64,000 bases of DNA. Origin: Lutjanus erythropterus. Taxonomy: Eukaryota; Chordata; Actinopteri; Lutjaniformes; Lutjanidae. Shown one piece after another: positions 2,816 to 63,876 of the stretch; the stretch's first letter is position 1; every line of letters starts with the position of its first letter. The translations under genes were made by a program, and so were the position numbers. The notes under the pieces are model-generated. The model was not told where the DNA came from. It saw nothing but the letters and a program-made list of their open reading frames with translations, and did not search any database. Location: assembly GCA_020091685.1 (NCBI GenBank), contig CM034607.1:35628429-35692428 (forward strand). Direction: 5' to 3'.

Positions 2816-3132
2816 TATTGTTGTGGAACCTCAGAATGAAAATATAGAGCTGGAAAATAGCATAATAGGTCCCCTTTCATTTTCAACTGTTATACAGTTG
2901 TATATATTTTGACTGTAACAAACATGCATCCTGGGATTTAAAACTTGCCGTAGGCCATATTGCAATTTTGCTAAAATTTTGATTGAGTGTTTAGCCTGAC
3001 TTGCAAACATGTTAAACAAAATATGCAACATTTCTCCACACATCTAAGAAAGTAGTAGTGTCACTATTTTAAAGTTTAACAGGAAATTACAGTTTTCTAA
3101 AACACATGTATGTATTTCATTCGTATCCACAG

Positions 3133-3606
3133 ATGTCCAGCAGCTGTTGGTGAGTAAAGAAGAGGTTCCACCCAAGCAGCAGGAGTGGAGCTCCAGTCTG
3201 AATCAAGAGCACCCACCAGAGCTGGCACACATTAAAGTGGAACAGGAGAAACTCTGGACCAGACAGGAGGGTGAGCAGCTTGGAGGGCTGGAGGAAGCTG
3301 ATATAACCAAGTTCACATCCATGCCTGTTCCTGTGAAGAGAGAAGAAGATGATGAAGAGAAACCTCAGTCATCACAGCTTCATCAAAGTCAAACTGAACA
3401 GATAAAAATAGAAGCTCATGGAGAGGATGGTGGAAGATCAGAACCAGCCAAAAACTTCAATCCAGATAGAAATTTACAACCAGCTACTCATGACAAGACT
3501 TCACACTGCTCAGAACCTGAGACTAAGGAGGGCTGTGAATGGGAAGAGACACAAATACAAACTACTGGACACTGTTTTCTCCCGGAAGTTCGATTACACA
3601 GAACAG
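3133..3606 (+). CDS. Zinc-finger gene 1, acidic cassette exon (no fingers)
   Basis: This is an internal exon of a fish C2H2 zinc-finger gene. It begins after a TCCACAG acceptor with VQQLLVSKEEVPPKQQEW. It continues through the acidic block with IKVE, the EGEQL...EEADITKF segment and VKREEDDEE. It ends LPEVRLHRT at an AACAG|GTTTGT donor. Length is 474 bp (158 codons), phase 1 at both ends, so joining to the next exon at 5347 restores a GAT codon. The last ~50 bp match the 3' end of the family's first exon at nucleotide level, showing the exon is a fusion. Two of the usual SUMO-type sites differ here (IKVE still fits the motif; VKRE replaces VKSE). The upstream first exon is not visible in the window. 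Alternatively this exon could be a leftover that is skipped. Confidence 0.8.
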
Positions 3607-4089
3607 GTTTGTAGAAGCCAGCCACCACTCAAAGAGTTTAAATTCTTTATTGTGGTATGTAAAACAGTTACAGTGAAGCAGTCATTGGCAATGAAATTCT
3701 TAGTTCTTGGCTCCCTTCAGCAGTGTTCATACAATTTGTAAGGCCTTGGTGGAGGGTTTGTCAGCAGCTGTCTTAGCTGCTTAGCAAGCAACATGCTGTT
3801 GGCTCTTGGTATGGCATTTCAGCCAAAATGTATATGTTATTCCAACATATACTGTACATAGGACAGACAACAGAAGAGTTTAAAAAAACGCACATGCCAT
3901 CTCAAGGAAGTACAAGATAAGGGTAGAGCACAGCAATAATAAAAAGAAGTGTAAACATCAGTGTGACTGAATTGGTAAATGTTAGGTTATGTTGGTTGAA
4001 TTTGTGCATAGGAAAATAATTGTATACTTGTAGCCATGATGTAAATACATTTTTTTATATAATTTAACAAATTACAAGTCAACAATCTT

Positions 4090-10929: not shown

Positions 10930-11443
10930 CAACACGGAAGTAGGACATGGTAACGGTGGCGATTGCATACCGCGGCTAATAACGTCTGTAGGGGCGAACA
11001 TGTTCACCTTAATCTTTATGTGTTACCATAAGATCCCATGGGAGTGAAGCAGCGGAGCCCCTGTGTGTGGTTAAACGTGTTGAAGTGGACTTTGTGAAAA
11101 CGTTCGCTATGTTGCAGCTCAGACTCCTGTTAGCCAAGAGTGGTAAAGGAAGTTAGCCTAGCCTGCTGCAGGAAATAGACGGAGCTCAGCCTCACAGCGC
11201 AGCGCACAGCGGAGCAGCTTCATCGCAGACCGAACTGTATTTTTAACACGTAGAGCTGTCTGAACAGACTTTGTGTTGTTCACTTTATTTGAACATGTTT
11301 AACATCTGAATTATCTCCTGGTGCCCTACGAACCTAGTTTGCAGCTGGCTATAGACGGAGCTGAATGGGATCTAATTTATGAACGCAGCACACATCAGAG
11401 AGACCAGAATGTTTTAACGGAGTGAGTCTACAGAAAACTAAAT
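10930..11443 (+). promoter_or_regulatory. Gene 2 promoter and 5' leader block
   Basis: This GC-richer block is shared with the regions before exon 1 of genes 3, 4 and 5. Landmarks are AAAATCAA-CACGGAAGT, a GGTAACGG/GCGGCTAA segment, GGAGTGAAGCAGCGGAG, GTTGAAGTGGACTTTGTG, TTAGCCTAGCCTGCTGCAGG and AGACGGAGCTC. It probably holds the transcription start and 5' untranslated exon. I see no TATA box. Confidence 0.6.
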
Positions 11444-12410: not shown

Positions 12411-12944
12411 CTGGTGTCTACAGTGGTGGTCTGCCACTCATGTTCCACTAACACAAGTCATTTCCTAACAGCAGGTTGACAACCAGTTACACATTCAGTG
12501 TATTTTGGAAAATGATAAATAATATGCTATGCATATGCTTTGTTAATGAGTTTAATGTGTTTTAATATTGTGTGATTGAGTTCTACTCATAAATTAAACA
12601 TAGTCAGGCTAGCTGCGGTGGCTAGGCTAACGACAAGCTCCAGTATTAGCTTTGGATACATTGCCTATCACATAGGAAATTAATTTGTATGCGCATTGGG
12701 GTGACAATCTGATAATGGCCTAACTTTTGAATGGTACTTGCTGTCTGGAGATGACGTGCCAGTTAGGGCTGGGTATTGTTTATAAAATTATGACACCTGT
12801 ATCCATACCAATTACCGTAATGTCATACAGATACCAGTAGAGTACTTCATTTGATATCCACCATGTAAATATTAATTTTAATAAGTAAAATTTGAATAAG
12901 TATAGGAAATTAAAGTTTTCTATGATGTATATTATTCTCCATAG

Positions 12945-13406
12945 ATGTCCAGCAGCTGTTGGTGAGTAAAGAAGAGGTTCGCCCTGTGCAGCAGGATTGG
13001 AGCCCCAGTCTGGACCAGGAGGATCCACCAGAGCTGCCACACATTAAAGAAGAAGAGGAGGAACTCTGGACCAGTCAGGAGGGACAGCAGCTTCGAGGGT
13101 TGGAAGATGCTGACATCACCAAGTTCACAATCACTGCTGTAACTGTGAAGAGTGAAGAGGATGATGATGAAGAGAAACCTCAGTTCTTACAGCTTCATCC
13201 AAGACAAACTGAAGATATTGGCGATCCAGAACATGTGAAATCAGAGTCTGATGGAGAGGACTGTGGGGGATCTGAAGCAGCCATGAACTTTAATCCAGAT
13301 AGTTGTTTACAAATGGCTATTCGTGACAAGACATCACACTCCTCCGAACCTGAAACACAAACTACTGGACACTTTTCTCAGCCAGAAGACCAATTACACA
13401 GAGCAG
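12945..13406 (+). CDS. Zinc-finger gene 2, acidic cassette exon
   Basis: This internal exon runs 462 bp (154 codons), phase 1 at both ends. The acceptor is CTCCATAG and the donor GCAG|GTTTGT. It encodes VQQLLVSKEEVRPVQQDW, IKEEEEELWTSQEG, VKSEEDDDEEK, VKSESDGEDCGG, a serine-rich stretch, then QTTGHFSQPEDQLHRA. No fingers are present. SUMO-type sites (IKEE, VKSE twice) are followed by acidic residues. The last ~50 bp derive from exon 1 sequence read in another frame. Because the exon is symmetrical it can be skipped: with it the protein is 727 residues, without it 573. Confidence 0.85.
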
Positions 13407-14431
13407 GTTTGTACAGTTTCATTGTTATTCTCACTTTAAACTGCTGAGAAACCACCTGCCACTAAAATAGTTCAATTTCTTAATTGTTATATGCACAGCA
13501 ATTACAATGAGCCATTGCAACGAAATTCTTAGTTTTCAGCTCCCTCCAATAATGCTCATACAAATTGTGTATAAAGACAAAAACATAAGTAAAAATGAGA
13601 ATCTCAGACATAAATAGAAAGAAGGAGAGATCCACACACCAAAAGTGATGTTTTGAGCTGCATGCTCTTCCTCAGACTGCTTCTAAGACATAGCAGATAT
13701 CTGAAAATGCGTGTGGGAATTTCCAGATGTGTGTGGAGTCTTTTTTTTACCACTTGTTACTGACATGAACACAGTAAAAGGGGTCAATACAACAAACTGA
13801 TTTCAAGCCAACAGTTGACTAGTCAGTGCACATTTTGATATTTTGTTAATTATTAAAATGTATGTTTTCGGGGCACAAAGCACGCCACCTGTTAAAAGCT
13901 ACCGGAAAAAGGGTGATAACTTTGTTGGTCCAATCAGCAAGCAGACTGAACATATTATTAATTTATTTCAACTGAGTGTAACCTTGTTCTTCAATAAATA
14001 ACTTCCAACTTAAGAAGAATGCTCAACAAATACTTGCAGACTTATCAAAATGATGGATGATGTATCCTTGCAAACTGACTCGCCAAGTTACAAACTTGCT
14101 CCTGAACAGCTTCATGCCTCCTGTCTCCACCTGTTTTGATTGTCCCCAGTGTGAGAATCCTGTGGGAACTGCTGTAATGTTGTAGATTGAATAAAGAAAC
14201 AAACCTTGTTATTTGAACTCAGAAATAGACTAAAATGAGCATGGAATCCCAGCTGCCTTGATCACAGTCATTTTATGGTATTACTGTTCTGATGAAATGC
14301 AAAGTGCATGTAATTTGTTAAAATATGTTATTGAAAATGCAACATTTACCCACACAATCAAGAAAGTAGTGATGTCAGTAATTTAAATTACAGTTTTCTA
14401 AAATGTATATGCATTTCATTTTTCTCCACAG

Positions 14432-20139: not shown

Positions 20140-21398
20140 GTTTGTATAGCTTCTTAAGTATTATCACATGGCTGGATTCTGACTGGTCGGTTATAGCACT
20201 GTAAGGTCTCTATAGCAGGACAGACCGTTGCTATGGACGCAGTTCTGATCGTAGACTTTGGATGAGTTATAAAAATTCTTTTAAAAATAATATTTTATGC
20301 CAAATTATTATTTTATTACGCAAGTAGACATGTAATAAGCTGGATAATTTACCTTCTTATTGCAAAATATGTCCTGACAGCGTGGTGCAGGACAGGACAT
20401 GAAGCACCCTGATGACCTGCTTGCTGTGCATTATCCCTTTTATGAACTCTTTTGTATCTTCATAGGAATGTAAGAATAATGGTTTTACATGTGCATGGAA
20501 CATGAGCATGGAATCTGTTTACGGCATTTCTGCTCAGACGAAATAGAAAGCTGATGATATGCTTGTTTGTTGTTGTTGTTGTTGTTGTTGATTTCCTAAT
20601 ATATCAGGCTTCATTCAGACTGCCAGCAAATCAGATTTGTTTGTGAAATTAGATCTTCAAGACAGACTGTTCCACTTCAAGTGATGCAGATCTGATTTGT
20701 AATTCCAGACATCTAGTTAATAGGATCAGACCCTAAATGTAACATGTTGGTACCATTTGATTGGGCAAATCCTAGTTGTGATTTTTTAATTCATATACAT
20801 CCGTGGGTATCCATTTTAAACCACCTCCAATTGTGGCTTGGATCAGATTTACCAGAAATCAGTCCCTCCAGGATTTCATGGGCTGATTTTGCTGTTCTCA
20901 AAAACTGCAATGCATGTTTAGGCATTTTGCAATGCAGTTGTTTGAACAAATTTTTTTATTTGATTTTTTTCAATGTATATTTCATTAAAGAACAAAAGCA
21001 GCATGTTCCGTCATTGACATTACATGACATTTGCATGGGGGACTGTGATTGGTTACAATTGAATTTGCGGTGATTTGACAAAACTCTAAGGTCATGCAGA
21101 ATGCACAGATTTGTTGATATTTTTTTTTGTTGTTGTAACTGACTGGAGGGACTGAAAAATTGCATTGTGTGTTTGTTTGTTTGTTTGTGTGTTTGTTTTT
21201 TGCTGTTAAGACTTCATAAAATCAATCAGGATAAAATCTTGACTTGCCAGTAAACAGATTTGGTCTGACCATCTAAACAAGGCATAAAATGTGCAACATT
21301 TCTTCACACATTGAAGGAAGTAACAGTGTCAGAGGTTGAAATGTTGATAGGAAATGGCACTTTTCTAAAACATGTATGTGTTTCATTATTCTCCACAG

Positions 21399-21884
21399 AC
21401 ATCCAGCAGCTGTTGGTGAGTAAAGAAGAGGTTCCCCCTGAGCAGCAGGAGTGGAGCCCCAGTCTGGACCAGAAGGACCCACCAGAGCTGCCACACATTA
21501 AAGAGGAACAGGAGGAACTCTTGGCCAGTCAGGAGGGAGAGCAGCTTCGAAGGCTGGAGGAGGGTGATATCTACAAGTTCACCTTCACTCCTGTCACTGT
21601 AAAGAGTGAAGATGATTATGAAGAGAAATCTTACCCCTCACAGCTTCATCAGAGTCAAACAGAAAAGAACAGAGATGCAGAACATCTGAAAACAGAAGCT
21701 GATGGAAAGGACTGTGGAGGATCAGAGCCAGACAGGAATTTTTATCCCGACAATCGTTTACATCCAGATACTCATGATGAGATGTTAGACTCCTCTGAAC
21801 CTGAGACTGATGACAGTTGTGATTGGGAGGAAACACAGACTACTAGACGCTGTTGTCAACAGGGAGTCCGATTACACAGAGCAG
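21399..21884 (+). CDS. Zinc-finger gene 3, acidic cassette exon
   Basis: This 486 bp exon (162 codons) is phase 1 at both ends. The acceptor is CTCCACAG and the donor GCAG|GTTTGT. It encodes IQQLLVSKEEVPPEQQEW, IKEEQEELLASQEG, VKSEDDYEEK, LKTEADGKDCGG and ETDDSCDWEE, then TTRRCCQQGVRLHRA. The end again matches exon 1 nucleotides out of frame. It has no fingers. The next plus-strand acceptor of the family is at 33660, across an 11.8 kb intron full of transposons. If that splice fails, this exon would be followed by intron sequence and a short truncated acidic protein would result. Confidence 0.83.
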
Positions 21885-22225
21885 GTTTGTACAGTTTCAT
21901 TGTTATCCACACTTTAAATTGCTATTCTCTGCCTCACAACCAATATACATGCATGTTTAAACAGCTGGCAAACAGGTAAATTTGGTAGAGGAGATTAATG
22001 GGACCTGTCATGACCGCAGCACAGTTAGTAACAGTGTGTTGTAAATTGCTTGAGTGTTACAAGAGAAAAGGTCCGTCTAGCAACAAACCAAACACTTATG
22101 TCCCGGGCCTAAAAGCAAGGCACAGTCGCAGAAGTTTGAGTGTTTTTAATTCCAGCATCTAATGTCCTAATGAAAACTGTCAATGAAGACTCTTGTCACC
22201 GACTAAGATTTAACCCTTTGACTTC

Positions 22226-25430: not shown

Positions 25431-27051
25431 ATGGACTGTTGCACATTTTATGGGTGTAGTAGCAGGCACACAACTGTTGCCCTTGTGCCTGCAGACCCAA
25501 GTGAGTCTGAGGGTGAGGATATCAGTGATCCTGAGGAGGGTGATGATGCTGTTTGGGTCCCTCCATGCAACGAAAATGTTCTGAAACCGCCAAAGAAACA
25601 AGAGAACCAAAACCAGGCTCATAGAGCTCCCTTCAGACAGCATTGAAAATTCAAAATGTCTGCAAAGCCGAAACAAAGAAAGCGGGCCAAGAGGGACATT
25701 CCTACATTCACTGTGCCTGAGCCTGTCTTCACGGTTCCAGAGTCAGTCCAGGAGCTTTTTGAGTATTTCATGAGGCTCTTCACTGACCAGGTGATTGAGT
25801 ACATAGCTGAGCATACTAACCTGTACTCAGTTCAACAGACACGGGCATCGGTCAAAACCACAGCTGCTGAAATCGAAGATTTCTTGTCAGTGTTGCTGTA
25901 TATGGGTGTGTTCCAGTTCCCCGCTATCGAAGATTACTGGGCCACTGAGTCACACTTCCCTCCAGTGGCAGACACCATGTCAGTGAAGCGTTTCCAGGTT
26001 CTCAGAAGACATGTCCACTTCAACGACAACTTCCAGACAGAGGGCAGCACCGACCGCTACGTCAAGATCCGTTCTCTCTTTGGCATGTTCAGACAACAAT
26101 GCCTCCTGATTCCCGCCACCAACAGGCATAGTATTGATGAAGTGATGGTGGCGTACAAAGGTACCTAAGCTGGCAACCTCTGTCAGTACATCCAGAGAAA
26201 GCCTGATAAGTGGGGGTTCAAGATCTTCTGTCGGTGCAGCTCGTCTGGAATCATCCACGACTTCATACTCTACCAAGGGGCCACAACTTTCTGCAACATT
26301 CAAGAGAAAGAAGTTGCACATCTAGGCTTGGAAGACCTCCTCCTAGGCGGCAAGATCGTCTCGATACAGTCACCAACAAAGAGGCAACTGTGGTGTTCTA
26401 CGATAACTTCTTTACCAGCTTCAACTTGGTGAAGATGCTGCACACCAACTTAAGAGTCCAAAGTGTTGGTACCGTCAGAGCAAACCGCACAGGTAATGCA
26501 CTTTCACATGCACATGCCATACACACACCATGCACCACACACACACACACACTCAATATGCATGCACACTGGCATGCACCATGCAGGTGTGCTCACACAC
26601 ACACACATACACACCTTGTAAATATTGTAAATTTTCTCTTTGGATGTAGATATATTCCACATTCTTGTGTTTTTTTTAAACAGTTTTAATGTACTGTATG
26701 TAGTGCTAACTGGAGACATACACAAACAAATGAGCTTACACTGTATTTCCACTTCTTTCAGGGTGTACAATATTGCTGAGTGACAAGGAGTTGGTGAGGC
26801 AAGAGAGAGGTGCTGTCGATTTCTGTTCACCCAAGGGAGTCATTGCAGTGGAGTGGTATGACAGCAAGTGTGTCAACTTGCTGAGTAATGCATGTGGGGT
26901 AGAATCGCTGTCTTCAGTGAAAAGATTCTTACAGAAGCAACAAAAGGTTGACGTGCCATGTCCATCCAAGTGTGGAGATGGCAAGTTGTTCCTTTGTTTG
27001 AACAACAAAAAGCAGTGCTTTGTTACATACCACAGTGCAGGTGTTCGATAG
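25431..27051 (+). pseudogene. piggyBac transposase remnant
   Basis: The N-terminal part starts MDCCTFYGCSSRH with an acidic SEGEDISDPEEGDDAVW stretch after a TTTCAG acceptor-like site. After a frame change, KQRKRAKRDIPTFTVPEPVF and LFTDQVIEYIAEHTNLYS follow. The DDE core shows SIDEVMVAYKGT, then a TAA at 26166, then AGNLCQYIQRKPDKWGFKIF. Another frame change leads to VVFYDNFFTSFNLVKML. After a (CA)n-rich insert comes VIAVEWYDSKCVNLLS. The segment carrying the third catalytic Asp is deleted, and the text resumes in the C-terminal Cys/His region (LCLNNKKQCFVTYH). It is not functional. Confidence 0.85.
26517..26612. repeat. (CA)n-rich tract in piggyBac transposase
   Basis: Imperfect CACACA and CATGCA repeats interrupt the transposase sequence between the VRANRTG and CTILLSDKELV segments. 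A GT follows VRANRTG, and a TTTCAG precedes CTILL, so this may be an intron of the element that has expanded. Confidence 0.7.
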
Positions 27052-28879: not shown

Positions 28880-28934
28880 GTATACAGTCTAGTGACACGC
28901 ATTTTACTTATTTACAAATTAACTTCATTTCACT

Positions 28935-30461
28935 ATGATTGTACCCTATATTACATGTGACAAAACTGATTGGTATTTATATTCTTTAATGTCAACTCAA
29001 GCAAATCAGAGTGGGCTGAATGAAGCTGGCAAGGGTGGAGCTGTTTGGAGTGTGATACAGCTGGGACCACAAACATGGAGATTGCAGTCCCAAAATATCC
29101 TGATTGAAGGAGCTGGCCCAACACCACACGCACGACGCAACATTGACAGCCCTGTGAGTGCGTTTATGTGTCTCATGGATCCTGTGATGCTGCAGCACAT
29201 CTGTGAGTGTACAGTCATGGAGGCACACCAGAGTGGAGCTGAAGGCTGGGAGCTGAGCCTGGCTGAGCTGAAGGCCTTCATTGCACTCCTCCTCGCCAGG
29301 GGAGTGCATAAGGGTAGGAACACTTTTGTTGAGGACCTGTGGTCTAAAGAATGGGGTCTTCCCTTCTTCAACACCACCATGTCAAGAAACCGATATAGGG
29401 AAATAATGCGCTACCTGAGGTTTGACAGAAAAGAAACATCGCATCCAACAATTGATCGGCGCACCCGAATGGCGAGTGACAGGTTTGCGCTGATAAGTGA
29501 AGTGTGGGACAGGCTTTTCCAGAATAGTATTGCGTGTTATAAACCAGGTCCAGAAATTACAGTTGATGAACAATTATTAACTGTAAAGACACGCTGCCCC
29601 TTCACCCAGTACATGCCAAATAAGCCCGATAAATTTGGCATCAAGTTCTGGCTTGTTGCTGATGTGGAAACAAACTACATGTTGAATGGGTATCCTTATT
29701 TGGGAAAGGATCTGAGCCATCCCACTACAGAGAGCCCAGAGGAAAGTGTCATCTTCAAACTCATGGAGCCTCTTCTGGGAAATGAAATAACTGACAACTT
29801 TTTCACATCACTCCCCCTTGTCCACGAACTCCTGGTGAAAAACACCAGCCCAGTGGCCACCACCAACAGAAACAAGTGCTCACTGCCTCCATCTGTGCAC
29901 CACAGAGCCGGACTGCATGAAACTAAGGTGATGCAGAGTGACAGAGCCACCCTCACCATCTACCAGGGAAAGGAAGAAAATAATGCATGCATCCTCAACA
30001 CTATGCACACATCGGTGGAGACAGGGGATGACCTGAAAAAGAAGCCAGAGACAGTCTGCTACTACAGCAGGACGGAGGTGGGTGTCCTGGACAAGATGCT
30101 GAGGCAGTACTCCGCCCAAGCCGCAAGCAGAAGATGGCCAGTCACGTTTTTTTACAACATGCTGGATATAGCTGCACTGAATGCCTGGGTCCTGCACCAG
30201 AACTGCATGGATACAAACATGAGCCGGCGCATGTTCATCCTGGAGCTCTGCAAGGAGTTGCGCAGTGAGTACATCACTGTGGCAACAGAACCACTAAAGC
30301 CCTTCTTGCTTTCTCCTATGCCTGAGGGCAAGAGGAAGAACTGCACTGTAAAACGCCAGTGCAAAAAAAATAAGACAACCAAGGTGTGTGTGATGTGCCG
30401 ACGTCCAGTGTGTGGACAATGCACTGTAAAAGTTTACAGTGTGTGTCGTGACTGTGAGTAG
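28935..30461 (+). CDS. piggyBac 2 transposase (PGBD4-like), uninterrupted 508-codon frame
   Basis: The frame covers nearly the whole transposase: ELSLAELKAFIALLLARGVH, FFNTTMSRNRYREIMRYLRF, ITVDEQLLTVKTRCPFTQY (first catalytic Asp), MPNKPDKFGIKFWLVADVE, EITDNFFTSLPLV (second Asp), TLTIYQGKEENNACILNTMH, a C-terminal RRWPVTFFYNMLDIAALNAW and a Cys-rich end (CVMCRRPVCGQC, VCRDC). Where relatives have GVDVLDQM, this copy reads VGVLDKM, a two-residue loss that appears to remove the third catalytic Asp. The first ~25 codons are probably intron sequence, since the true start is likely upstream. Flanking TTAA and terminal repeats were not found. Probably a recent but inactive or domesticating copy. 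Confidence 0.85.
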   Translation: MIVPYITCDKTDWYLYSLMSTQANQSGLNEAGKGGAVWSVIQLGPQTWRLQSQNILIEGAGPTPHARRNIDSPVSAFMCLMDPVMLQHICECTVMEAHQSGAEGWELSLAELKAFIALLLARGVHKGRNTFVEDLWSKEWGLPFFNTTMSRNRYREIMRYLRFDRKETSHPTIDRRTRMASDRFALISEVWDRLFQNSIACYKPGPEITVDEQLLTVKTRCPFTQYMPNKPDKFGIKFWLVADVETNYMLNGYPYLGKDLSHPTTESPEESVIFKLMEPLLGNEITDNFFTSLPLVHELLVKNTSPVATTNRNKCSLPPSVHHRAGLHETKVMQSDRATLTIYQGKEENNACILNTMHTSVETGDDLKKKPETVCYYSRTEVGVLDKMLRQYSAQAASRRWPVTFFYNMLDIAALNAWVLHQNCMDTNMSRRMFILELCKELRSEYITVATEPLKPFLLSPMPEGKRKNCTVKRQCKKNKTTKVCVMCRRPVCGQCTVKVYSVCRDCE

Positions 30462-38879: not shown

Positions 38880-39018
38880 ATGTCCAAAGTCCAAACTCTG
38901 AGAGCTTTTGTCAACCAGCGACTGACTGCGGCAGCTGAGGAGATATTTGAGCTGTTTGAAAGAACGATAGCAGAGTACGAGGAGACATTTTGTCGACAAC
39001 ATAGTCTACACATAACAG
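38880..39018 (+). CDS. Zinc-finger gene 4, exon 1 (3'-shortened form)
   Basis: Encodes MSKVQTLRAFVNQRLTAA, EEIFELFERTIAEYEETF and CRQHSLHIT, ending ACAG|GTTTGT in phase 1. The N-terminal ~40 residues form a predicted amphipathic, possibly coiled, segment typical of this fish family. It lacks the KLLDAVFNPEVRLHRA end present in gene 5, so it is the reciprocal deletion to genes 2 and 3. The join to 40612 is in frame. Confidence 0.9.
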
Positions 39019-47226: not shown

Positions 47227-48704
47227 TCATTTATGTCTGTTGCTCTCACCAGCACACTTGTGTTTTTTGATTTGAGCACGCCGAGTGAATCTTTTATTAC
47301 AAACACTGCAACTAAATTGTTTCTCCCCTCTGTGGACAGTTGCGTGTTGTCTCAAATGTACCTTTTGTGCAAATCTTTTTTCACATACACCACAACTAAA
47401 TGGTTTCTCCCCTGTGTGGACAGTCAAGTGTCGATTCAGAGTTCCACATTGTGTGAATCTTTTACCACAAACTGAACAACTAAATGGTTTTTCCCCTGTA
47501 TGGACAATCAAGTGTCGCCTCAAAGTTCGATTATCTCCAAATCTTTTACCACAAGCTGAGCAACTAAATGGTTTCACTCCTGTTTGGATTTCATTGTGGT
47601 TATGCAAATGTCCCTTGCTGTCAAACATTGCAGTGTATTCAGAGGAGCTAACTGATGTTTTTTCATAATTACATAAATTTGACTGAGTCTCCCCCCAACT
47701 GAATGGTTTCTCCCCTGTGTGGACAGTCAAATGCTGTTTCAGACGTGCATGTCGTGCAAATGTTTTACCACAAAAAGAACAACTGTTATGCATTCTCCTG
47801 TGTTTGGACCAAGTTTTGTTGTCACTGAAACTTTTTTTACAAACCGAGCAGGTGAAAGGTTTTTCTCCCGTATGGGCTCTTAAGTGTGAGGTCAAATGGG
47901 AGCTTTGTGTGAATCTTGTGCCACAGAAAGAGCAACTGAAGGGTTTTTCCCCTGTGTGGATTCTCATGTGTGTCACAAGATTTGCCTTCCATTGAAAAGT
48001 TCTTTTACAAACTGAGCAACTGAAACATTTTGCTCCTGAATGAAGTCTCATATGAGCCCTTAAAGAGTGCTTCCCATGGTAGCTTTTACCACAAACTGAG
48101 CAACTAAATGGTTTCAGTCCTGTTTGGAATCCATCATGTTGTTGCGGATGTCCCTTGTGGCCAAAGCTTGTAGGACATTCAGAGGAGCTGATTTGTGCTT
48201 TTCCAGTATTACATTCCATATCACTTACAGGTACTTCATTGATTTGCAGTGGGTTTAAACCTGGCGGAGGTTCCCAATCACAACTACTGTCATTAGTCTC
48301 AGGTTCAGAGGAGTCTAACATCTCATCATCAGTAACTGGTTGCAAATTACTACCTGGATTGAAATTCCGGGCTAGCTCTGATACTCCACAGTCCTCTCCA
48401 TCAGCTTCTGTTTTGAAATGCTCTGCATCTGTGTTCTCTTCTGTTTGTGTTTGATGAAACTGTGATGATTGATGTTTCTCTTCTTCATCTTCTTCACTCT
48501 TCACAGGGACAGGAGTGAATGTGAACTTGGTGATATCAGCCTCTTCCAACCCTCGAAGCTGCTCGCCCTCCTGATTGGTCCAGAGTTCCTCCTGTTCCTC
48601 TTTAATGTGTGGCAGCTCTGGTGGGTCCTCCTGGTCTAGACTGGGGTACCACTCCTGCTGCTCAGGGAGAACCTCTTCTTTACTCACCAAGAGCAGCTGG
48701 ATAT
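47227..48704 (-). CDS. Zinc-finger gene 5, terminal exon, 9 fingers in two blocks
   Basis: The acceptor CTCCACAG precedes [53 protein letters not shown] and a NEVPVSDMECN spacer follow. Block one has five fingers (YHGKHSLRAH, FQWKANLVTH, FTQSSHLTSH, FSDNKTWSKH, FARHARLKQH). Between fingers 4 and 5 the TGEKPF linker is missing (MHNSCSFC). Mid-finger, the sequence jumps from KPFS to WGETQSNLCNYEKTSVSSSE, a second copy of the pre-array spacer. Block two then adds four more fingers, the last ending KKHKCAG. With exon 1 at 50641-50470 the protein is 549 residues. The structure indicates fusion of two paralogous arrays by unequal exchange near 47697. Confidence 0.93.
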
Positions 48705-49579
48705 CTGTGGAGAATAATGACATGCATAAAGATGTTTTGGAAAACTGTAATTAAACCACTGACACCACTACATTCTTAAATATGTAGAGAAATGCTGCAC
48801 GATGTATAAAAGTCAAACTGATTCATACTACAAGCATATCGTAGACTTTGAATTTTGTCAGAGCAGAAATGCAAAAAAAAAAAGAAAGAAAAAAGACTGC
48901 AATCAAGACAGCTGTGATTCGATGCTCATGTTATGTACACATGTAAACCCTATTCATATCAGATCAGACTTTAATGTGCTTGGCCCTCAGAAGTGCTGCC
49001 TGCAGCATTCTCGAGGACTGCTCATCCAATCAACTCCACACTCGACAGGGCACTCCCTCGGGTCCTCAGCAATACAGCAAGTGTGAAAAAGATCAGGTGA
49101 GCAGTTCTTGAGATATGTGAAGGACAGTCAAACAAAGATGCCCTTCTTTTACAGGGATAACTAATATTTTTAAGCACTGGCTCTACAGGCCACTGGTGAA
49201 ATGCAGGTACATTTCAGCAGTGGCAGGTAATACAGTCACGCTTAATACTCTCATTGTACAGAACATACACCACTCTTAGAAACTGTACTTTAAACATGGT
49301 AAATACTCCAGCTTCTTTGTATTTATAACTACCTCAATTCTATTTTCAAACTGTGATTCTATTTATTTTATGCAGGCAATTTTCAACTTCCACGTTAAAT
49401 GTGTATTAGTGATTTTGTAATGTTTGTATTTTAACATTAGCATATCTTGGGTGTGGTTTTAATATAAGCCTTTATAGGTCTCTAGCCACAGCTCACATGT
49501 ACTTTTGTATTCCTTCACATGTTGGTATTCTTGTATTTTATGTGTGAAACAATAAATAAAAAAATAAAGATTATAAAAT

Positions 49580-50233: not shown

Positions 50234-50469
50234 TAAAATTTATAATGTACTATTTATTATTAAAGATTGGAGAGGAAGGAGAGAACTGTGGCTTGGTTGA
50301 CTGTGATTTTCTGATATGATGAACTTAGTACACAGATTTATTTTTCACCTGCACATTATTTCATTCCAGTACAACGGTTACCATGGTCCAAACGCATGAA
50401 ACAGTTATTATCCTCTTTTTTATTCCACTGAATATTTTACTGACGTATTGGCCATTGAACTGTACAAAC

Positions 50470-50641
50470 CTGCTCTGTGTAACCGGACTTCAGGGTTGAA
50501 TATAGCGTCCAGTAGTTTGTTCTGTCGACAAAGTGTCTCCTCGTACTCTGCTACCGTTCTCTCAAAGAGCTCAAATATCTCATCAGCAGCCGCAGTCAGT
50601 CGTTGGTTGACAAAAGCTCTCAGAGTTTGGACTTTAGACAT
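50470..50641 (-). CDS. Zinc-finger gene 5, exon 1 (full-length form)
   Basis: Encodes MSKVQTLRAFVNQRLTAA, DEIFELFERTVAEYEETL and CRQNKLLDAIFNPEVRLHRA, ending GCAG|GTTTGT in phase 1. This is the only exon 1 in the window with both the MSK...EYEE helix-like half and the KLLDAVFNPEVRLHRA half. It serves as the reference from which the exon 1 forms of genes 2-4 and the cassette-exon ends can be derived. It splices in frame to 48704. Confidence 0.92.
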
Positions 50642-56737: not shown

Positions 56738-56743
56738 TTTATT
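56738..56743 (-). promoter_or_regulatory. Candidate poly(A) signal, gene 6
   Basis: AATAAA on the minus strand, about 105 bp after the gene 6 stop codon, in a GAATAAAATATAAG context. Confidence 0.45.
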
Positions 56744-56846: not shown

Positions 56847-59365
56847 TTAAGTGGTGTGGATTCTCATGTGTCGTGTCAGATATCCCCTCTCTACAAATCC
56901 TTTGCCACAAACTGAACAACTGAATGGTTTATCATCTGTGTGGATTCCCATATGTCGTTTCAGATATATCCTTTCTCCAAATACTTTACCACAAACTGAA
57001 CAACTAAATGGTTTCTCACCTGTGTGGATTCTCATGTGTCGTTGCAGATTTCTCCTGTCTACAAATCCTCTACCACAAACTGAACAACTAAATGGTTTAT
57101 CATTTGTGTGGATTCCCATGTGCTGTGTCAGATATACCCTTTCTGCAAATCTTTTACCACAGACTGAACAACTGAATGGCTTCTGCCCTGTGTGGATTCT
57201 CATATGTCGTCTTAGATTTCTCCCATCTCCGAATCCTCTGCCACAAACTGAACAACTGAATGGTTTATCATTTGTGTGGACTCCCATGTGTTGTGTAAGA
57301 TATATCTTTTCCCCAAATACTTTACCACAAACTGTACAACTGAATGGTTTCTCCCCTGTGTGGATTCTCACATGTCGCCTTAGATTTCCCCAATCTCGAA
57401 ATCCTTTACCACAAACTGAACAGCTTAATGGTTTAGTATCTGTGTGGATTTTCATGTGACGCCTCAGATATCGCCCTTCTCCAAATCCTTTACCACAAAC
57501 TGAACAACTGAATGGTTTATCATCTGTGTGGATTTTCATGTGTTGTCTCAGATATCCCCTGTCTACAAATACTTTACCACAAACTGAACAATTGAATGGT
57601 TTCTCCCCTGTATGGATTTTCATGTGTCGTCTCATTATCCCCCCATTTCCAAATCTTTTACCACAAACTGAACAACTGAATGGTTTGTCATCTCTGTGGA
57701 CAGAGGAGTGTTCAGTCAGTTGTCCCTTTTGTGCAAATCCTTTACCACAAACTGAACAACTGAATGGTTTATCATCTGTGTGGATTAACATGTGTTGTCT
57801 CAGATATCCCCTTTCTACAAATGTTTTACCACAAACTGAACATCTGAATGGTTTCTCCCCTGTGTGGATTCTCATATGTCGTTTCAGACTTGACTTTAGT
57901 GTAAATCCTTTACCACAACCTGAGCAACTAAATGGTTTCCTTCCTGTCTGGATTTCTTTGTGTCTCTGTAGATGTACTTTGTCACCAGAGGTTGCAGTGC
58001 ATTCAGATGAGCTAACTGATGTTTTTCCAGTATTACAGAAACCTGTCTGAGTCTCCCTCTTCTCCCAATCAAAACTGTCATCAGTCTCAGGTTCAGAGGA
58101 GTCTGAGGTTTTGTCATTTGTAGCTGGTAAAACAATGCTGGGTTCTGATCCTCCATCAGCTGCTGTTTTCAAATGTTTTGTATCTCTATTCTCTTCTGTT
58201 TGGCTTTGATGAAGCTGTGAGGATTGAGGTTTCTCTTCATCATCCTCTTCACTCTTTACAGTTACAGGAATTAATGTGAACTTTGTGATATAAACCTCCT
58301 TCAGCCCTGGAAGCTGCTCTCCCTTCTGTCTGGTGTGGATTTTCATGTGTCGTCTCAGATATCGCCCTTCTGCAAATCCTCTGCCACAAACTGAACAACT
58401 AAATGGTTTATCATCTGTGTGGATTACCATGTGTTGTCTCAGATATCCCCTGTCCACAAATACTTTACCACAAACTGAACAACTGAATGGTTTCTCCCCT
58501 GTGTGGATTTTCATGTGTCGTCTCAGAATTCCCCCATTTCCAAATCTTTTACCACAAACTGAACAACTGAATGGTTTATCATCTCTGTGGACAGAGGAGT
58601 GTTCAGTCAGTTGTCCCTTTTGTGCAAATCCTTTGCCACAAACTGAACAACTGAATGGTTTATCATCTGTGTGGATTGCCATGTGTTGTCTCAGATATGC
58701 CCTTTCTACAAATGCTTTACCACAAACTGAACAACTGAATGGTTTCTCCCCTGTGTGGATTTTCATGTGTCGTTTCAGACTTGACTTAAGTGTAAATTCT
58801 TTACCACAACCCAAGCAACTAAATGGTTTCCTTCCTGTCTGGATTTCTTTGTGTTTCTGCCAATGTACTTTGTCACAAGAGGTTGCAGTGCATTCAAATG
58901 AGCTAACTGATGTTTTTCCAGTATTACATAAACCTGTGCAAGTCTCCCTTTTCTTCTCCCAATCACAACTGTCATCAGTCTCAGGTTCAGAGGAGTCTGA
59001 AGTCTTGTCATTTGTAGCTGGTAAAGCAATGTCTGGTTCTGATTCTCCACAGTCTTGTTCATCAGCTGCTGTTTTCAAATGTTTTGTATCTTTGTTCTCT
59101 TGTGTTTGGCTTTGATGAAGCTGTAAGGACTGATGTTTCTCTTCATCACCCTCTTCACTCTTTACAGTTACAGGAGTGAATGTGAACTTTGTGATATCAG
59201 CCTCCTCCAGCTCTCCAAGCTGCTCGCCCTCCTGTCTGGTCTGGAGTTCCTCCTGTTCCTCCTTAATGTGTGGCAGCTCTGGTGGGTCCTCCTGGTCCAG
59301 ACCGGGGCTCCACTCCTGCTGCTCAGGGGAAACGTCTTCTTTATTCTCCAACAGCTGCTGGACGT
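56847..59365 (-). CDS. Composite zinc-finger gene 6, terminal exon, 19 fingers in two arrays
   Basis: The acceptor CTCAACAG precedes VQQLLENKEDVSPEQQEW. Order: acidic region with IKEE and VKSEEGDEEK; a spacer; six fingers (first FTLKSSLKRH); then, straight after MKIHT, a second acidic region starting RQKGEQLPGL with VKSEEDDEEK; a second spacer; thirteen fingers. The second half repeats the first, about 905 bp per unit. In fingers 7-13 of the second array, NL-RHMRIH-TGEK fingers alternate with YLTQHMGIH-TNDK fingers, a two-finger period. Linkers TDDKPF, TNDKPF and RDDKPF are unlike the canonical TGEKPF. The LKTE site is lost (LKTA). It ends MRIHTT. It probably splices from 60515. Confidence 0.92.
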
Positions 59366-60514
59366 CTGTTGAGACTAGTGAAATACATACACAAGTTTTA
59401 GAAAACTGTAAACTTCCAGTTAACATTTAATCTAACAATACCATCACCAAGCATTGCTTTTTAACTTTATGATCACTTATTAGAATTACTAAATCTAATA
59501 TGCTGCATGCACACTGCGAGCTCTCAGCTGCAACATAACAGTAATCCCTGAGCATGAACAGAATGTGGGATTGATCTCAGCTTAATCTAATGATTTTGAA
59601 AACACCAAATGAGTTACACCAACAAATGTGGTTAGTTTATAGTATGAACAGTTGCGAAATATCACTTACATGAGGCTGTTCAGTCAGACAGCAACAGATC
59701 ACCGGCAGTAAACTTGGCATTTCATCATTGCAGCTATCAAATATTACCAGTGCATTTTGACTGTAGCTGAGGCTTTACCTTAAGAGGTGCTTCTGTGTCA
59801 GGGTTAGAAAATGTCTAATTTCTAAATGTCTAATTCCTAGTGTGTAGACCTCTACCTCCATGCCACAGTAAAGCATGTTAATTTTAATATGCTAAAACCT
59901 TTATCAAGATAATGACAGTATAGCAAAATCTGTGCTGTGGGCATGCGTGGCACCAGTGATGGTGATGTCAGCAGTATTCCGTCCACTCCTACTGGAACTT
60001 GAACCATTTTCTGATGCCCCCGAAATATTTAAATAATTAAATTAAAATCATAAACATGCAACGACTGGTCCAGTAATGGCTTAAAAGAGCGACTAGTAGC
60101 TTAAGGTTTTGATTGGGGGTAGCTGTATAGGCTACACATTGACATACCAATATATACATTTATAGATCAGCAGTTGCATATTTAAAAATAGATTCTGAGT
60201 TTTATTCTTACAAATCAGAGTATGAATACACATTTTCAGAGAGCGTTACACAGTAATGGAGTGGGTGGAGTATACAGTAATGGTCCTATGTCATTTATCT
60301 CTTATTTTTATTTTTTTCAATTAGTTATTTTATTTATTTTTATTTGCATGATTATGTATAAGTATTGCTGGACAGAGCTGAGAACTAAGAATTCACTGAC
60401 AGTGACTGTTTCACTGTTATTGTTGATCATGTGACAGTAAAGACCTTGAGCTCTTTTAGTGGCAGCTGGTTTCCCAGCAGTCAAAAGTAAGAATAAAAAT
60501 GATATTGTACAAAC

Positions 60515-61792
60515 CGGCTTTGTGTAACTGAACTTCAGGGTTGAAAACAGGTTCTGATCCTCCACAGTCCTCTCCATCAGCCTCTATTTTCAAGTGTTCT
60601 GCAGCTGTGTTTTCTTCAGTTTGACTCTGATGAAGCTGTGAGGACTGAGGTTTCTCTTCATCATCTTCACTCTTCACAGGGACAGGAGTGAATGTGAACT
60701 TGGTGATATCAGCCTCCTCCGGCCTTGGAAGCTGCTCTCCCTCCTGAATGGTCCAGAGTTTAAGCTGCTGTCCATCCTGGCTGCTCCAGGCGTCCTCCTG
60801 TTCCTCTTTAATGTGTTGGGTCTCTGGGTCCTCTGGCTCCTGACTGGTCGAGAGTTCATGAAGCCGTGGCAACTCACCACCACACTTATGTCTTTTGAGT
60901 TGACAACGCCAAGTGAATCTTGCATCGCAAACATTACAGCTGAATGGTTTCTCTCCTGTGTGGGACCTCATATGTATCTGTAAACTGTCACGCCGTGAAA
61001 AACATTTACCGCAAAGTGAACAGCTGGGAGCTTTTGCTCCTGTATGGGATCTGATGTGATCCTGCAGAGTTACCTTCTGGGCAAATCTTTTACTGCAAAC
61101 TGAGCAGCTGAATGTTTTTTCTCCTGTATGGCATCTAAAATGATCCTGCAGACAAGCTGTCCGAGCATATGTCTTACCACAAACTGAGCAGCTGAAAGGG
61201 TTTTCACCTGTATGGAACCTAAAATGATCCTGCAGATCTGCATTCCGGGCATATCTTTTACCACAAACTGAGCAGCTGAATAGTTTTTCTTCTGTGTGTG
61301 TCCTCATGTGTCTCTTCAGATTTGAGTTTTGGTTAAATTGTTTACCACACTCACAGCAGCTGAATAGCTTCTCACAAGAACTATATCTGGCATTATTCAG
61401 AAAGCTTAAACCTAAATGAGCTTCCCTGGTATTTTCATCATCATTACTGACTTGAATCTCTAGTTCAAAACAGTCTTCAGTCTTGTCTTCAGTATCAAGT
61501 GTTAAATGTATATCTGGATCTGAGTTCTTGGCTGGTTCTGGTCCTCCATAGTCCTCCCCATAAACTTCCATTTCCATCTGTTCAGTCCGTCTTTGATGAA
61601 ACTGTGAGGACTGAGGTTTTGAATCATCATCTTCACTCTTCACATTGACAGGAATCAATGTGAACTTAGTCCACACTTCCTCCTGTTCCTCTTTAATGTG
61701 TGAAGGCTCTGGGTCCTTCTGGTCCAGAATAGGGCTCCACTCCTGTGGCTCAGGGGCAACTTCTTCTTTATTCACCCACAGCTGCTGGATGT
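60515..61792 (-). CDS. Composite zinc-finger gene 6, internal exon with 6 fingers and a second acidic module
   Basis: The acceptor CCTGCAG precedes [27 protein letters not shown] and VKSEDDDSK. Six fingers follow ([62 protein letters not shown]). Instead of stopping, the frame continues into a fresh acidic module: [40 protein letters not shown], then [11 protein letters not shown]. It ends at a GCCG|GTTTGT donor. Length is 1278 bp (426 codons), phase 1 at both ends. The next family acceptor downstream is 59365, so the two exons likely form one 25-finger protein. The first exon was not found up to 64000. The alternative, two separate genes, would leave this exon without a stop codon in its own array. 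Confidence 0.88.
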
Positions 61793-62812
61793 CTGCAGGA
61801 ACCACTGAAATACAAACACACACATTTAAATGTTTGTGTTAATGCCTTGATTTTTATTTGCTTGTTTTTTGCAGGTAAATGTGCTGTAGCATGATATCAC
61901 AGTATAATTATAATTAAATCTCCTAAGACATATAAAAGATGACTGCATAACCTGTGGCTTTGCATCATGACAGCAGTCATTGCCGTGGCTTGAATGGTAA
62001 AAAAAAAAAAAAAGGTGAGTAGGCAATAAATGTCTTCAGCAGCTGTCTCATGCCACTTTTTTTTATATTAAAGCATTGTCAATGACATAGTGTTCTTTGT
62101 CTCTCTTTCCCATCATATTTAAAATGTCCATTTCTGTCTGAAGACGGTGGTTGGACACACTAACAGCAGGCTAACTAAAGCTAGCAGGTAACATATAGAA
62201 GTAATCTTTAAAACAATGGTGCATCAAAATGATTCCATTATCGACACACACACACACACACACATTTATGACTGAAACAACTTGTCGAGATGGGGGGTAT
62301 TCCCTTGTCACTCAGGGAACACAGCAAACATGCTAACTAACTTTGTAAATAAGTGTTAGTTCTATTAGCCATGTTGTGCCAGAATCAGACCCAGTAACTC
62401 ACAGCGTGATGCCGAACTGTAGGTTGGTATTCGCCTTCACCATAGAATGGATGAATGTCTCTTTTCTCAGTAAAACACCAGCAGTGGTATGATTAGCTAT
62501 AATGCACACTGGCTTTCATGGCTGGTGACTCGGCTGACGGTAAAGTCCAGTATGGATATCGAGGCACAGATTAAAAGACAGATGAAGATCAGACATCCAG
62601 AGACACCGAGCCCAATCTTAAAGCGATCTAAAGTGCATGGTTTAAAGATCAAGGGTTTTAATTTATTCAAGGCGTGTCCAAATTCACCTTTGCCATCTTG
62701 TGCTAGAGGTGCACAGGGGTGTCCCCTGCATGCGTTATCAACTGCACCCAAATGCCTTGGTTAATTTCTGGATGTGTTTGGGGCATAACATGGAATAAAC
62801 CAATCAGAGAGT

Positions 62813-62911
62813 CAGCTATCATCACCTCTAAGAAGCTTGGGTGCCCACAGTCAGAGGGTGTTTCTGAAGTTTGTGGGAAGTGATATGCAGTTGCACACAA
62901 CCACCATCAGG
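62813..62911 (+). repeat. Local repeat, copy 1
   Basis: GCTATCATCACCTCTAAGAA, GTGCCCA, GTTTCTGAAGT, GGAAGTGAT and CAACCACCATCAGGCT recur in the same order at 63680-63876. This copy is shorter by two internal blocks. Confidence 0.75.
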
Positions 62912-63679
62912 CTGAATAGAACAGAAGTAGAGGTCAGGCCAGACGAACGATCAGACATAACCTCTTGTTCATTTTGTATGTTATAGATAATAATTGTTTA
63001 ATCTTGTTTTTCTGGATCCCAATGAACATACTGGCACAAACACTATGGTTGCGCCAGTAGTCATGTGACTGATCTAGCGAGGACTATTTGAGAGCTTGCA
63101 TAACCCACGTCATCTGGTGTGTGCTGGGTGTAAAATAGGGCCCGTTAACTTTTAAAGAGCATTAAAACTAAATAAAAGAGTGAAAGAGTGACGTGTTCAA
63201 GTGACAGCCAGGCTCACAGCATCTGTAAGCTCTTGTTGTGATGAATCAGGGAATGACACACAGTCACTGACAGACCCAATCAAGAAGTTTCTATTATCTA
63301 TTGTTTCCAAAGGTCTCCATTTCTGCCAGTCCAGACTAAAGTGCAACCCAGGAGTTTTAAACTGAAACGGGTCCAGCAGCGTTTTCAAGCATCTCCATTT
63401 TAAGTGTCCTTAAAGGCTGGGGTAGTGTGGACACTAGGTGGGAATTTAGCAAAACATACGTATTTTAAAACAAAAACATAGTAGTGAGAAAGACTTGCCC
63501 AAGGGTGACACAGGCATTAATGAAATTAGCATAGCAGCTCATTTGGCAGGACATTTGGCATAAGATATCCGTTTCTCATCTTTGATTCAGTTCTATTAAC
63601 TTCAACTTTTGAGTGACAGATTTTATCCACTAGATAAAGCCATTAGTTGATTGTTGAAGATTTTGTGCTTTATGTTGTA

Positions 63680-63876
63680 AGCTATCATCACCTCTAAGAA
63701 GCATGTGTGCCCAGAGTGCAAGTGTTCGCAGAATTATGTTGGAATTACCATGAGGAAAAAAGAGAAGCTTTTGAAGTGAGGAGGAACCAGAGTCAGAAAG
63801 GGTTTCTGAAGTCTGCAGGAAGTGATGCACAATTACACACAGGTTATCCAGTGGGTATGAACAACCACCATTAGGC
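63680..63876 (+). repeat. Local repeat, copy 2
   Basis: Longer partner of 62813-62911 in the same orientation, about 0.85 kb downstream. It includes about 65 and 25 extra bases. It could be two copies of a dispersed element or a local duplication. Confidence 0.75.

Follow-up and report, generated by a model that had tools for sequence, protein, structure and literature searches.

A candidate 25-finger C2H2 protein in Lutjanus erythropterus, probably formed by fusion of neighboring genes from two subfamilies

The window analyzed here is a stretch of 64,000 nucleotides (nt) from Lutjanus erythropterus (C17:35628429-35692428, within a 937.6-Mb genome). It carries a cluster of C2H2 zinc-finger genes, in which two minus-strand exons, termed A and B, can be joined into one composite reading frame. 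Flanks were added to obtain a 162-kilobase (kb) piece, numbered in extended window coordinates and containing 4,946 N bases, of which 4,780 are located immediately left of the window. Exon A (60515..61792, 1278 nt) encodes an acidic module, a finger array, a second acidic module and a captured first-exon tail with splice donor. Its frame is open from 61792 through the array and the second module to the donor at 60515/60514 (GCCG/GTTTGT, slash marking the splice site). Exon B (56847..59365, 2519 nt) starts at the next acceptor and encodes an acidic module, 6 fingers, another acidic module and 13 fingers, its frame being open from 59365 to a stop at 56849-56847; an AATAAA poly(A) signal follows on the minus strand at 56738..56743. 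The introns on both flanks of exon A are phase 1, as is the A-B junction, and after joining, the only stop in the frame is the terminal one. An initial annotation had proposed a stop-less exon A, a two-unit exon B and an open joined frame with four acidic modules and three arrays, and in all of this it was correct.

Together, the two exons encode 24 canonical C2H2 fingers and one finger that ends in H-K-C, i.e., five plus one in exon A and 19, all canonical, in exon B. The number of 25 fingers given earlier therefore stands as a count and needs a footnote, because the last finger of array A is the H-K-C one; this is a frequent array end in the family, not the sole one. Array A (60882..61358, minus) has contact residues QSNR, RADD, RACD, QVTD, RDSI and WCQR at positions -1, 2, 3 and 6. 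Array B1 (58335..58817, minus) contains six fingers and array B2 (56856..57926, minus) thirteen, the first six of which repeat array B1. The Pfam zf-C2H2 expect values (E) of 2.6e-25 for exon A and 2.1e-105 for exon B indicate that the arrays are not chance matches. The canonical fingers follow the tandem C-x2-C-x12-H-x3-5-H pattern, with PF00096 and PF13465 above cut-off.

Upstream of exon A and outside the window, two further minus-strand exons complete the predicted gene, E1 (about 67002-66822, extended coordinates), which begins with ATG, and E2 (65128-64895). Both are helix-rich as judged by eye, and E2 is itself a chimera, with the start of an acidic exon followed by a first-exon-like stretch and donor. 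The full model, E1+E2+A+B, comprises 1,403 codons. The intron upstream of exon A contains short direct repeats (62811-62851 and 63677-63717, 90% identical over 41 bases), perhaps of mobile-element origin.

The four acidic modules are A1 (61365..61792, minus, with IKEE and VKSE motifs), A2 (60551..60880, minus), B1 and B2, the last without about the first 40 profile positions. Full-length modules span about 110-150 residues; they are repeated and are encoded within the finger-bearing exons themselves. The model contains nine psi-K-x-E motifs, which we take to be SUMO-acceptor-like; eight are distributed over the four modules, all of which carry such motifs, and one is in E2. For 52 modules of over 60 amino acids, the mean number of motifs was 2.1, versus 0.30 after shuffling, and 34 of the 52 had at least two; V-K-x-E was invariant in all 12 window modules. 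A low-confidence structure model of A2, calculated from an input of only 12 sequences, gave a mean predicted local distance difference test (pLDDT) score of 56.9, a predicted template modeling (pTM) score of 0.15 and zero listed secondary structure, which is consistent with disorder. A Pfam scan of E1+E2 and the four modules apart gave no KRAB match at E up to 1 and no other family above its cut-off, and KRAB was absent from the 12 families listed for exon A. The N-terminal KRAB domain that marks KRAB-ZNF proteins was thus not found.

Two subfamilies can be distinguished in the cluster by their first exons, for which we coined the names alpha (MSSRLQERTDSFKQQLL first exon) and beta (MSKVQ first exon). 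The window contains beta first exons at 38880 and 50641, and two others near 11435 and 20043 that are short or partial; one beta gene, for example, combines a first exon at 50641-50471 with 48705-47230. The alpha first exons are located right of the window, including the one at about 67.0 kb that gives the exon A gene its own alpha type. E1, E2 and most of exon A group with alpha by this upstream first exon, by the HKC-ended array and by mostly alpha-like 90-base windows. Exon B, on the other hand, resembles a beta terminal exon, and its best window matches were beta genes, in a window holding little alpha sequence besides exon A. It has no complete MSKVQ-type first exon: none was found on the minus strand from exon B to about 117.9 kb (E up to 1e-3), and the nearest one, at that position, carries an in-frame stop. 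A third first-exon-like type (VSRLQSLKVVVEQRLTAAVDDIFGHFERTIREFEEEL), 57% identical to the MSKVQ type, occurs at 79046-79156 (plus) ahead of a gene termed G4 and at 99498-99608 (minus) ahead of G5.

Two junctions in exon A are informative. At J1 (60830..60890, minus), the array end HKCGGE continues without a stop into module A2, as in neighboring alpha genes. Because such stop-less array-to-acidic junctions are common in the alpha genes seen here, J1 probably predates the joining of exons A and B, and loss of a stop in this fusion becomes less likely. At J2 (60515..60553, minus), the end of A2 is fused to a beta-type first-exon tail: the final ~39 nt of exon A and the donor match the ends of beta first exons, with 88% identity over 50 nt between 60501-60550 and 11539-11490 (E 1.7e-10) and 90% over 40 nt between 60506-60545 and the intact first exon at 50461-50500 (E 8.7e-8). 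The intron between A and B (59366..60514, minus) is in its 5' part homologous to introns that follow beta first and middle exons and in its 3' part to beta acceptor regions. A complete first exon between A and B was searched for, and nothing was found in 59366-60514 except the tail itself (60554-60513), in searches at E up to 10 and E up to 1e-3. There was also no clear CpG promoter signal between the exons, in what is a weak test: the observed/expected CpG ratio was 0.18 and 0.45 in intron windows, as compared to 0.57-0.70 at four first-exon starts and a regional median of 0.25. The intervening beta first exon, earlier considered lost, indeed has no complete copy there, but it was truncated and captured in exon A rather than simply lost.

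We searched the genome with the last acidic stretch, tail and intron start of exon A, which gave 40 scored matches out of 110 candidates. Of the scored matches, 37 did not extend past query base 113, which corresponds to about 60550 in the window. Only the locus itself, a sister locus termed G6 (90%) and a locus at 35592436, L024 (71%), continued beyond it. In L024, a middle acidic exon of beta type, J2 is present in shortened form; the capture of the tail may therefore predate the alpha-beta fusion. An assembly error was considered and is unlikely, since J2 recurs at G6 and, shortened, at L024. The middle acidic exons of beta genes in the window (3132-3608, 12944-13408 and 21398-21886, plus) also end in a first-exon tail, which is in a shifted frame; a one-base gap restores phase 1 at the donor.

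The sister locus is on the plus strand, about 41 kb from exon A (102749-103871 and 104736 on, extended coordinates), and contains E1, E2, an exon A with the same J2, and an exon B with one acidic module and 12 fingers. Donor, phase and acceptor are at the same places as in the locus of exons A and B, referred to as G1. Identity between the two was 178/181 bases for E1 and 221/234 for E2. For exon A, the ratio of nonsynonymous to synonymous substitution rates (dN/dS) was 0.38 (confidence interval, CI, 0.26-0.57; Fisher 1.6e-6; 335 codons) at a dS of 0.28. It was 0.20 (CI 0.10-0.40) for array A, in which several contact residues differ between G1 and G6, and 0.41 (CI 0.18-1.02, p 0.029) for module A2. 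In exon B the comparison was confined to the acidic part, since the arrays align ambiguously.

Another relative, G3 (84764-88831, minus), encodes four acidic modules and 21 canonical fingers in a single 1,356-codon frame that runs from stop to stop. Over the first 260 residues it is alpha-like (63% identity to G2, 62% to exon A) and over the last 300 beta-like (closest to exon B of G6, 70%, and of G1, 64%), while its fourth module alone does not decide between the subfamilies. G3 presents the alpha-beta protein design with no need for a splice between the parts. Since relatives beside the locus carry the same kind of fusion, this looks like a working design, not an accident. In the 162-kb piece, all 18 finger-bearing frames have an acidic module and 7 of the 18 finger exons, with A and B counted, have at least two; the same applies to 5 of 5 further loci elsewhere, a biased sample picked for strong multiple matches. 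One locus, L022 (2-3250; C17:36966500-36969900), has a 1,083-codon frame that runs off the fetched stretch, with four acidic modules and four arrays by profile and array-to-module junctions unlike J1. The finger exons of L020 (499-2265) and L021 (530-2692) end in an extra acidic module and the same C-terminal peptide FIGQFW, not in fingers.

In exon A, the similarity changes from alpha to beta. Windows of 90 bases were mostly alpha up to about base 960, with the first window beta and the second a tie, and mostly beta starting near base 990, except for an alpha window at 1080. Module halves were also scored, as mean alpha-minus-beta bits in 15 segments, G3 module 2 being dropped. In tests of L020 or L021, both were removed from the references; L022, L023 and G6 belonged to neither set; and the alpha set, here as for the 90-base windows, included G3 and L021, which are themselves partly beta-like. 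Module A1 is mostly alpha-like, and A2 of G1 moves from +13.0 in the first half to -8.0 in the second. The alpha controls (G2, G7, L019 and L020) had positive means in both halves, the beta controls (b21, b40, b48 and L024) had negative ones, and the module in exon B of G6 scored -19.4 and then -6.8. The shift fits an exchange between homologous acidic modules of neighboring genes, with a split that is noisy.

The double unit of exon B has another history. The acidic-ZF6 unit is tandemly duplicated in G1 and this duplication is absent from G6. At its junction J3 (58320..58345, minus), a finger linker (CCACACAG) and an acidic module (CCAGACAG) agree at 7 of 8 bases. The two copies share 825 of 888 bases, with a dS of 0.128 and a dN/dS of 0.48 (CI 0.27-0.87), or 0.27 in the finger part. 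All 18 residues at positions -1, 3 and 6 of the six repeated fingers are the same. The idea that selection kept these contacts was set aside, as so few changes could miss 18 residues by chance. Because G6 lacks the double unit and the dS of the duplication (0.13) is below that of exon A between G1 and G6 (0.28), a single event for all three arrays is ruled out. By these comparisons the double unit is a separate, later tandem duplication and not part of the fusion, which refines the initial annotation.

Taken together, these observations point to one gene, probably formed by fusion of an alpha-type C2H2 gene to its beta-type neighbor, with exons in the order E1, E2, A and B. Recombination between homologous acidic modules of the neighbors would have removed the start of the beta gene and joined the frames. 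The earlier proposal of a neighbor-gene fusion holds for the most part, as exon A starts alpha while its end and exon B are beta.

Several observations argue against this interpretation or blur it. The alpha-beta split is imperfect: A2 of G6 scores slightly beta-like from the outset (-7.8 and -21.7 in its two halves), a late A2 window of G1 is alpha (+18), G3 module 3 shifts too (+15.6 to -28.3), L021 module 2 gives an ambiguous value in its second half (-0.4), and module B1 of exon B scores -19.7 in its first half and a mixed +4.2 in its second. The weaker MSKVQ-like exon ahead of G5 (99608-99498) must also be considered. Module A1 (dN/dS 0.77, CI 0.41-1.83) and the acidic part of exon B (0.83, CI 0.51-1.54) are not below 1 between G1 and G6, and neither is the acidic part of B1 versus B2 (0.80, CI 0.36-2.33). 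Shared descent alone could keep psi-K-x-E motifs and raise their count. The E2-A introns of G1 and G6 are alignable in patches only, and the A-B introns, tried as a neutral yardstick, failed to align (366/807 positions identical); gene conversion of the exons is therefore possible, and dS may understate their age. An alternative of which we are doubtful, though it deserves attention, is that the alpha gene obtained its second acidic module by internal duplication, with capture of the beta first-exon tail as the sole event between genes. The commonness of multi-module exons, the recurrence of J1-type peptides and the clear internal duplication in exon B agree with it, and a single deletion between neighbors would then, with the same limited likelihood, be wrong for J1. 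However, A2 tends toward beta in its second half at both loci, G1 and G6, and this requires an exchange with a beta gene beyond the tail.

The most direct objections concern whether A and B form one transcript. Five AATAAA signals lie in the intron, 170-308 nt beyond the exon A donor, and the frame of exon A stays open beyond the donor until a stop near 60458, so that an A-only product is possible. Exon B is preceded by an in-frame ATG (59426), and the intron CpG window of 0.45 exceeds the regional 75th percentile of 0.38. The donor itself is CCG/GT, with C at -2, instead of the CAG/GT of the 12 other family donors listed, and is probably weaker. Two products could result, with the exon A transcript ending in the intron as an acidic-ZF6-acidic protein, and exon B being expressed from an intronic start or not at all. 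We consider this unlikely, in view of the conserved donor, phase and acceptor in G6, the failure to find a first exon in the intron, and G3, whose alpha and beta parts sit in one exon, uninterrupted by an intron. That the locus is a decaying relic without product is very improbable: the A1 ratio, which is not distinguishable from 1, would agree with decay, but the 1,403 open codons, the intact fingers of exon B and the low dN/dS of array A and of the duplicated finger part of exon B do not.

A more general rule for the cluster can be tentatively proposed, and we rate it as somewhat doubtful. By repeated recombination, the acceptor end of an acidic exon may have been linked with the donor end of the first exon of a neighbor, which would create a symmetrical phase-1 exon that allows in-frame concatenation. 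Three kinds of internal exon fit this rule: the beta middle exons, E2 of alpha genes and exon A. This would yield a class of zinc-finger proteins with multiple arrays and modules, able to bind at several sites simultaneously and rich in SUMO-acceptor-like sites. Elsewhere in the window, a second composite exon (47230-48750, minus) has five fingers, an acidic-module tail (WGETQSNLCNYEKTSVSSSEY...) and further fingers, and is not multi-module by profile. Two plus-strand frames (25647-26168 and 28923-30461) match the Pfam transposase family DDE_Tnp_1_7 (E 1.5e-26 and 2.2e-60) and are presumably piggyBac-like. Both fall inside a beta gene, after its middle exon (21398) and before its terminal exon (33659).

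The fused protein would act as a nuclear DNA-binding repressor in the manner of KRAB-ZNF or FiNZ-ZNF proteins, and its predicted role is that of a multivalent repressor. Its three arrays may contact several sites simultaneously, and exon B would supply the same six-finger reader twice. The four flexible acidic modules could recruit silencing factors, perhaps through SUMO at their psi-K-x-E motifs. If made, the protein offers a natural test of how several arrays and repeated effector modules affect target choice and silencing strength, for instance against transposons. Zinc-finger clusters are known to change through duplication of genes and through alterations in their arrays. Here, whole regulatory-plus-DNA-binding units appear to have been strung together across the borders of genes; the breakpoints are visible and there is a sister copy. 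Among the titles and abstract openings listed in the literature searches, in a collection without most subscription journals, none described such an architecture.

The organization resembles that of the KRAB-ZNF genes of tetrapods, which occur as clustered tandem duplicates, have N-terminal exons followed by a long C2H2-array exon, and encode probable repressors. It differs from them by the missing KRAB match, by acidic modules that are repeated and placed between arrays inside one exon, and by the derivation of exons A and B from two subfamilies. The terms fusion, read-through, chimeric and recombination are all absent from a paper on a human KRAB cluster (PMC2865497). Among fish genes, there is a likeness to the cyprinid FiNZ genes, which also form clusters and have a glutamate-rich N-terminal module; knock-down of FiNZ genes is reported to derepress transposons (PMC10547256). 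A second paper suggests TRIM33 as the partner of KRAB-like and FiNZ proteins and reports no significant correlation between FiNZ gene and transposon expression (PMC11603059). FiNZ itself is described as spanning 28 residues within one exon ahead of the array and as unique to cyprinids (PMC10547256), whereas the modules here are much longer, share the finger exon and are repeated. A further comparison is with the other beta genes of the window, which share acidic module, fingers, phase-1 introns and first-exon tail with exons A and B. Unlike exon A, however, their middle exons at 3132, 12944 and 21398 have no finger array and share one frame-shifted junction that is different from J2.

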